Source: Peribacillus simplex (GTDB lineage Bacteria > Bacillota > Bacilli > Bacillales > DSM-1321). Taken from it: 64,000 nt of DNA. The stretch's first letter is position 1. Every line of letters begins with the position of its first letter. Under the pieces are notes generated by a model. That model was not told the origin of the DNA, searched no databases, and worked only from the letters and a program-made list of their open reading frames with translations. Positions 56,565 through 58,758 of this stretch are shown here, piece after piece. Location: positions 5,112,001 through 5,176,000 of the forward strand of contig NZ_CP011008.1 in NCBI RefSeq assembly GCF_001578185.1. Reading direction: 5' to 3'. A program made the translations under genes and the position numbers.

Positions 56565-57614
56565 TTACACATGTTCCTCGATGATTTGATGACCTGCCGC
56601 CTTCTCAAGCCGGTTCATGACAGCAGCCCCGATACCGTAGTCAGGAAACATTTCACTGAAAATGATATCGACCTCCAGCTCATCAAATTGTCGTAAAGTA
56701 TCATATAAGCCTGTCGCAACTGTATGTAAATCCGATAAAGAACCTGGGGCAACCACATAATCCGCATTATAATCCTGTTGATGTTCTAAAGCCGTTATGA
56801 TGCCTACCTTTAACCCGTCATTTCTTTTTTCATTCACAAGCCTCTGAAGGAATGATTGATTACCCTTGACTAAAAATAGCGGGGCTTTTGGAGCATAGTG
56901 GGTATATTTCATGCCCGGAGCTTTTGGCGCCGTTTCCTGATTCTTCAAAGCGACATCTTGCCTGACTTCTCCTATTACCGCTTCCAACTGTTCCAAGGTC
57001 ACCCCACCAGGCCTTAAAATAACAGGGACTTCCACAGTGCAATCCAGTACTGTGGATTCTACGCCCACACCCGTAGTACCGCCATCGACAATGCCTGCAA
57101 TCCGGCCCATCAAGTCATCTTCAACATGTTTGGCTGAGGTGGGGCTTGGTTTTCCTGAAGTATTTGCACTTGGAGCCGCAATGGGCAAATCACTCGCACG
57201 AATAAGACCGAGGGCAACCTGATGATCTGGCATCCTGACAGCCACCGTGTCCAATCCAGCTGTCACAAGAGTTGATAGCTGGCCCGGTTTTCGTTTCATG
57301 ATCAAAGTCAAAGGACCCGGCCAAAATTCCGCCATTAGCTTCCGTGCCTTTACCGGGATCTCTTCTACAATACCTGACAACTGGTCATCTGAGGCTATAT
57401 GAACGATTAAAGGATTATCACTCGGACGCCCTTTTGCTTCAAACACTTTTTTGACCGCCTCGTCACTTTTGGCATTCGCGCCTAGTCCATAAACGGTCTC
57501 CGTAGGAAAGGCAACCACTTGATTAGCCATTAATAATTCAGCTGATTGTGTAATCTGGGGATAACTTTGTAAATTATCCACATTTTTATCCACTGACCAA
57601 ACTTTCGTTTTCAT
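56565..57614 (-). CDS. tsaC: L-threonylcarbamoyladenylate synthase (Sua5/YwlC type)
   Basis: Makes threonylcarbamoyl-AMP for the t6A37 modification of ANN-decoding tRNAs. 349 residues: an YrdC-like catalytic domain (VAFPTETVYGLGANAKSDEAVKKVFEAKGRPSDNPLIVHI ... PIAAPSANTSGKPSPTSAKHVEDDL) and a C-terminal Sua5 domain (PKAPGMKYTHYAPKAPL ...). The start is the ATG at 57614, matching MKTKVW of B. subtilis YwlC; ATG 57626 and GTG 57623 are alternatives. The N-terminal coding region already contains DnaA boxes that continue upstream. Confidence 0.94.
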   Translation of the reverse strand: MKTKVWSVDKNVDNLQSYPQITQSAELLMANQVVAFPTETVYGLGANAKSDEAVKKVFEAKGRPSDNPLIVHIASDDQLSGIVEEIPVKARKLMAEFWPGPLTLIMKRKPGQLSTLVTAGLDTVAVRMPDHQVALGLIRASDLPIAAPSANTSGKPSPTSAKHVEDDLMGRIAGIVDGGTTGVGVESTVLDCTVEVPVILRPGGVTLEQLEAVIGEVRQDVALKNQETAPKAPGMKYTHYAPKAPLFLVKGNQSFLQRLVNEKRNDGLKVGIITALEHQQDYNADYVVAPGSLSDLHTVATGLYDTLRQFDELEVDIIFSEMFPDYGIGAAVMNRLEKAAGHQIIEEHV

Positions 57615-57856
57615 TTTTAACACCATCGCCTTTTAACATTTCTTATTTTATATGATTGCTTTTATATGAACGATATTTTCAACTTATCTTACTAATTTTA
57701 CTTAAAAGATACTTTGAAAGTATAAAAGAAGTATACACATAATTCAAGTGTTATCCACAAATTGGGGATAACTATATCGAATCCGTGGATAAGTTTGTGG
57801 ATATTAAAGATTAATGACAGACTTTTTTGATTTTTTGTTAATAACCCTGTGGATAT
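57556..57856. promoter_or_regulatory. DnaA-box cluster at the tsaC (ywlC) start
   Basis: Eight 9-mers matching TTATCCACA within one mismatch in 301 bases: perfect at 57574 and 57751; one mismatch at 57586 on the same strand; and on the other strand at 57556, 57763, 57784, 57796 and 57848. The boxes span the 5' end of tsaC and the 262-base gap to spoIIR. Such clusters bind DnaA away from oriC, and from memory one is known near ywlC in B. subtilis. No AT-rich unwinding element with DnaA-trio repeats was seen, so this is not proposed as the origin. Confidence 0.75.
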
Positions 57857-57876: not shown

Positions 57877-58758
57877 TTAAAAAAGCTCATTGAAGATTTC
57901 TGCAAATAAGGACTTCACTTCTACCTCAGGCTCCTTTTCACCTTTATAAAATTGTTGACCCTGTTCATTGGATGCCGCAAGCTTCTCTTTGTTTTCCTTA
58001 CCATTCCCATCAATGACTTCCTCCGTTAATTCCTCGTTCCCCTTTACTTCTGTCACTTCACCTTCTACCTCTGGCTCGATAACCTTTACCGTTTCTTCCG
58101 GTACTTCCTCTTTTACACTTTCATCTTTTACCTTTTCTTCAACTTCTTCCTCTTGAATAGGTTCTTTCTCTTCATTCGTTGCAGCATAAGCCTTCCCTCC
58201 CGAAGTTTCGGATTCTTTATCTTCATCCTCGACAATCGGACTTTGACTTACAGCCGTCCCATTTGAAAAATCCAAGAAACATAATGGAGGAAATAACACA
58301 CACCACCAATTAGCCCCTTCCCCTTCACCCAGTGTAATGATCACAGCTTCATAATCCCCTGCCGGATATAAATACTGCCCGTAAAGTTTTGTTGGAAATT
58401 CCGCTTGTCCAAAATCTACTTTTACTGACTGTTCCAAACCATGTTCCTTTATAACCGCCTCAGCCGTGGCCTGGATATCCGGTAGATGTGAGGTGATCAC
58501 ATCCCTCGCGTCATCCAAAGAAGTAAGCTCCTCGACCCACTTTGTGATATCTTTATTTACCTCATCCCTAATCAGCCGCTTAACCGATTGATCCTCTTCT
58601 GTATCACTATTAGCAAGTATCCGCAGACGAATCGCCTCATCCGGGATCACCATCGTTTCCTCTGCACCGACCATTTCCGCTTTAGGCATATATATACTTA
58701 CGATCGTTCCTATAGTTAAGATTAATAGATAAATAATGGCTAAATGTTTAGTTTTCAT
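57877..58758 (-). CDS. spoIIR: Stage II sporulation protein SpoIIR with an extended acidic tail
   Basis: Secreted forespore signal that activates SpoIIGA to process pro-sigma-E. 293 residues against about 224 in B. subtilis. Signal/membrane segment at 1-24, SpoIIR domain at about 38-170 (EAIRLRILANSDTEEDQSVKRLIRDEV, LYPAGDYEAVIITLGEGEGANWWCVLFPPLCFLDF). Residues 172-279 are a Glu/Lys/Val-rich low-complexity insertion before the C-terminal hydrophobic helix (VKSLFAEIFNELF). ATG with GAGGGG upstream; sigma-F promoter at 58783. Confidence 0.94.
   Translation of the reverse strand: MKTKHLAIIYLLILTIGTIVSIYMPKAEMVGAEETMVIPDEAIRLRILANSDTEEDQSVKRLIRDEVNKDITKWVEELTSLDDARDVITSHLPDIQATAEAVIKEHGLEQSVKVDFGQAEFPTKLYGQYLYPAGDYEAVIITLGEGEGANWWCVLFPPLCFLDFSNGTAVSQSPIVEDEDKESETSGGKAYAATNEEKEPIQEEEVEEKVKDESVKEEVPEETVKVIEPEVEGEVTEVKGNEELTEEVIDGNGKENKEKLAASNEQGQQFYKGEKEPEVEVKSLFAEIFNELF

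Follow-up and report, generated by a model that had tools for sequence, protein, structure and literature searches.

The cluster of DnaA boxes at the 5' end of tsaC (ywlC) in Peribacillus simplex is under strong nucleotide-level selection, tied to the tsaC promoter and to the first codons of the gene, and, judged from the gene it adjoins and from intermediate relatives, it is the positional counterpart of the ywlC DnaA-box cluster of Bacillus subtilis. DnaA is the protein that starts chromosome copying. Within the window (the whole analysed stretch of 64,000 nucleotides, positions 5,112,001 to 5,176,000 of contig NZ_CP011008.1), eight 9-mers that differ from TTATCCACA at no more than one base lie on both strands between 57556 and 57856, three of them (57556-57594) inside the tsaC reading frame and the other five in the gap that separates tsaC from spoIIR (Table 1). 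The two perfect and six one-mismatch copies reported by a first-pass annotation of this DNA are thus all present, and so is the density far above chance that it claimed: a first-order Markov model at the local 28% GC gave on average 0.11 boxes per 301 bases, with no trial out of 5000 above 2, versus 8 seen. Over the whole window, boxes with at most one mismatch were not in excess (25 seen, 19.9 expected), and no other locus in it approached 8 boxes per 301 bases. The cluster lies about 176 kb from dnaA on the 5.35-Mb contig and is not a part of oriC, the oriC-type clusters (DnaA-box clusters flanking dnaA) being found beside dnaA itself. TsaC of the window has 92-94% identity with its counterpart in several records of Peribacillus frigoritolerans, P. 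simplex and relatives; PrmC was also confirmed among the neighbours, by the curated model TIGR03534, while spoIIR is a neighbour outside the element and was not judged part of it. The first ATG of the tsaC open reading frame is at 57626, and comparison with relatives suggests that the true start is likely the ATG at 57614 (MKTKVW...).

Table 1. Positions in the window of the DnaA boxes, the predicted promoter and the two flanking genes.
Feature	Position	Strand	Remarks
tsaC (ywlC), L-threonylcarbamoyladenylate synthase	56565..57626	-	TIGR00057 214 bits, above cut-off
In-gene box C3, TTATCCCCA (1 mismatch)	57556..57564	-	+62 from first ATG
In-gene box C2, TTATCCACA (perfect)	57574..57582	+	+44 from first ATG
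In-gene box C1, TTATCCACT (1 mismatch)	57586..57594	+	+32; overlaps codons of TsaC VDKNVDN stretch
Predicted sigma-A promoter of tsaC	57719..57747	-	Consensus scan
Elements of predicted tsaC promoter: -35 TTGAAT, -10 TATACT	57742-57747 (-35), 57719-57724 (-10)	-	Spacer 17 nt
Intergenic box U4, TTATCCACA (perfect)	57751..57759	+	3 nt from -35 element
Intergenic box U3, TTATCCCCA	57763..57771	-	
Intergenic box U2, TTATCCACG	57784..57792	-	
Intergenic box U1, ATATCCACA	57796..57804	-	Quartet U1-U4, start-to-start 12/21/12
Two-mismatch box TTATTAACA	57836-57844		12 bp from U0
Outlying box U0, ATATCCACA	57848..57856	-	Conserved in 21 close relatives within Peribacillus
spoIIR, stage II sporulation protein R	57877..58758	-	TIGR02837 207 bits, above cut-off

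The boxes form two rigid modules, an intergenic quartet and a set of in-gene boxes at fixed codon phase, joined by a linker of variable length. The quartet has start-to-start spacings of 12, 21 and 12, with one-base variants in some genomes, and its last box is inverted; at 8 or fewer total mismatches it was found in 66 of 158 genomes, some 30 of these 158 being Peribacillus, and in 19 families, while in the gene-body control the best match had 10 total mismatches and the threshold was never reached. In about nine genera, a promoter resembling TTGNNT-N17-TATACT begins 3-4 nt past U4; the other quartet-bearing genera have no such promoter at that place beside U4. In one family (f33), the last quartet box lies only 22-46 nt ahead of the first ATG, and therefore the promoter must be elsewhere and a model with DnaA on both sides of it misfits as drawn. 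Within the gene, the phases of the window's three boxes recur within one mismatch in other Bacilli: (i) +32 (C1) in 63 of 83 genomes, versus 28.5 expected from synonymous resampling, (ii) +44 (C2) in 38 of the 83, and (iii) +62 (C3) in 44.

We counted boxes between -260 and +110 of tsaC and found at least three in 90 of 129 Bacilli genomes (one entry per genome), a biased estimate since TsaC similarity and family guided the sampling; 39 of the 129 were without the cluster. Genomes with the cluster mostly hold 4-9 boxes, where shuffled sequence gives roughly 0.1 on average, and none of 40 Bacillota genomes from outside class Bacilli reached three at the tsaC 5' end. Conservation of the position, from which the first-pass annotation would have argued for selection, was found class-wide, and the box counts in orthologous regions that it had proposed showed that close relatives keep the boxes, U0 included (21 Peribacillus genomes). 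On a TsaC tree computed without the N-terminal columns, the cluster required 14 state changes, 8 of them forced by well-supported branches, versus about 31 for shuffled labels. This tree shows cluster presence to be clustered among TsaC sequences, gain and loss not being separable by it. A DnaA-control site of the tsaC promoter is probably old within class Bacilli, and the cluster in the window probably descends from it.

Selection on the boxes could be separated from selection on the protein by drawing synonymous codons according to each gene's own usage. Across the 83 genomes, 177 in-gene boxes were seen versus 62.8 expected (sd 5.7; maximum 79 in 500 resamplings), about a threefold excess over what the protein and its codon usage would give, and this resampling would understate the effect if the boxes had themselves moulded the VD[KN]xVD[NK] protein sequence. 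Among the 21 close Peribacillus genomes, all 9 third codon positions within boxes were invariant, versus 18% outside them across the gene (P = 4e-7) and 46% outside them within its first 105 nt (P = 0.005), and intergenic box positions were 93% invariant versus 55% (P = 3e-7), these P values treating sites as independent.

The start of a gene identified as tsaC by TIGR00057 thus has several boxes in about 300 bp, and the quartet spacing and in-gene phase are common to many families, which supplies the intermediate relatives for positional homology. The quartet also occurs in family f26, presumably that of B. subtilis, and TsaC of genus g27 resembles, we assume, B. subtilis YwlC; over 338 amino acids, DnaA is about 90-91% identical between the window's genome and this genus. 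In the YwlC-like genus, the in-gene boxes lie at +51, with +62 in some, instead of at +32, +44 and +62. The B. subtilis ywlC cluster (region 6 of Smith and Grossman 2015) occupies the same end of the same gene, is likewise origin-proximal and has 9 boxes versus 8 here, but its gene is preceded directly by ywlB, whereas spoIIR lies directly upstream in Peribacillus. The cluster at ywlC that the first-pass annotation named is indeed documented, as a region with 9 DnaA sites and an in vitro apparent Kd of 0.25 uM for ATP-DnaA (PMC4447404), so the kind of element is already known; what is new is how tightly it is kept, although earlier reports of its conservation may exist. In B. subtilis, ywlC is described as DnaA-repressed, and a PywlC-lacZ fusion (-240 to +73), which would span both modules, falls when DnaA rises (PMC12112137). 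The E. coli loci datA, DARS1 and DARS2 likewise consist of DnaA boxes grouped away from oriC and influence how much DnaA is available or in which state it is, but datA uses IHF and DARS2 IHF and Fis, in an IHF-assisted hydrolysis or exchange of the nucleotide on DnaA, and we claim no sequence or positional relation between these loci and the tsaC cluster; IHF and the datA and DARS loci are reported to be absent from B. subtilis (PMC13220808).

For the box density, layout, synteny, conservation, nucleotide-level selection and promoter geometry that we observed, the best explanation, and to our mind a quite probable one, is that this Peribacillus counterpart of the ywlC cluster serves both DnaA repression of the tsaC promoter and titration near the origin. 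By analogy with B. subtilis, DnaA would bind the boxes in Peribacillus, on the upstream side at the quartet U1-U4, nearly touching the -35 element, and on the downstream side at C1-C3, about 120-155 nt past the predicted transcription start. Complexes on both sides would then repress tsaC by blocking RNA polymerase, by looping, or by both, and several DnaA molecules held about 176 kb from oriC would leave less free DnaA soon after each initiation. It counts against this explanation that 6 of the 8 boxes carry a mismatch, as does the lack of the cluster in 39 of the 129 sampled genomes.

A less likely reading, to which we give only a minor share of probability, is that the boxes only take up DnaA close to the origin, with tsaC as a passive host. 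In B. subtilis, six clusters outside oriC jointly restrain initiation, according to the accounts of Okumura et al. (2012) in PMC5295017 and PMC13220808; in that of PMC5295017, initiation comes early once all six are deleted, and its timing is partly regained with an ectopic copy. The site is also close to the origin, lying 129-627 kb from dnaA and on either arm in 27 genomes, and a cluster between convergent genes at tsaD is likewise widespread. However, titration requires neither a fixed promoter distance nor a codon phase, and both are conserved; tsaC is origin-proximal too in several genomes that have no cluster (e.g. G061, G273 and G345), and origin proximity was rejected as the cause, tsaC being found near the origin both with the cluster and, in these several genomes, without it. 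We infer that repression, and not titration, would be what fixes the layout.

The genome also has counterparts of the B. subtilis clusters at gcp/tsaD-ydiF, yqeG(-sda), yydA/rlmH and trmE-jag (genes named by eye), which adjoin tsaD, yqeG, rlmH and mnmE and differ in box spacings from the tsaC cluster. In a set of 30 chosen genomes, at least three boxes were found at tsaC in 27, on the 3' side of tsaD in 22, 5' of rlmH in about 20 and 5' of yqeG in about 15, a comparison that favours tsaC because tsaC guided the choice of genomes. Since some of these clusters sit between convergent genes, as does that on the 3' side of tsaD, promoter control alone does not explain why clusters persist, and for those between convergent genes titration is the likelier use. 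Both the tsaD-ydiF cluster (L097:2256-2401) and that at tsaC adjoin genes of t6A synthesis, which may be a coincidence. By the trmE cluster, between mnmE (trmE) and jag, we noticed by eye an open reading frame like a group II intron reverse transcriptase (L102:2558-3820; about 5340557-5341819 of contig G000:C1). Three more groups of 5-7 boxes, at about 188056, 816567 and 4965341 of the same contig (L096:2057-2261, L098:2068-2237 and L100:2142-2336), have no obvious match to the B. subtilis regions in PMC4447404.

The first-pass annotation had also proposed that the position beside spoIIR, if conserved, is under selection and may couple replication to sporulation, a link that we now regard as very improbable. 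It is true that spoIIR is the upstream neighbour of the cluster in the window, and that spore formers commonly carry the cluster, SpoIIR being present in 86 of the 90 cluster genomes; but the boxes are phased to tsaC, anchored to its promoter and coding region and not to spoIIR, and in 20 of the cluster genomes with SpoIIR the spoIIR gene fell outside the upstream DNA retrieved, while in 25 it was 700-1600 bp off. Four genomes keep the cluster without a SpoIIR match (G062, G187, G064 and G147), two of which (G064 and G147) have no Spo0A above the cut-off either, whereas it is present in G062 and G187. Conversely, 29 of the sampled genomes have SpoIIR and no cluster. Each feature being found without the other, we rejected the link to sporulation. 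In family f33, the cluster is retained whichever arm of the chromosome carries tsaC. Of the interpretation given in the first-pass annotation, the ywlC counterpart, the reported restraint of initiation by the six B. subtilis clusters and the conservation stand, and the tie to sporulation does not.

That AT-rich DNA and the VDKNVDN protein motif yielded the boxes by chance has next to no probability: GTGGAT codons (Val-Asp) do resemble part of a box, and protein conservation alone accounts for the expected number given above, but the Markov and synonymous controls, on which both the chance and the coding-constraint readings were rejected, fall short by wide margins, and the intergenic boxes, free of coding constraint, are conserved nonetheless.

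DnaA-box clusters outside the origin are known mainly from B. subtilis, where titration and promoter control are debated as their role. A layout kept across dozens of families, a promoter spacing fixed in many of them and selection at the level of codons point to a site-specific job at tsaC, and sporulation is removed as a likely reason for the position of the cluster. It is possible, though we put it forward tentatively, that DnaA control of tsaC is an old and strongly selected feature of Bacilli, in which the in-gene boxes would have shaped the TsaC N-terminus (VDKNVDN), linking DnaA level to t6A synthesis and thereby to translation. Together with the second widespread cluster beside a t6A gene, tsaD, this could amount to a coupling of replication and translation.
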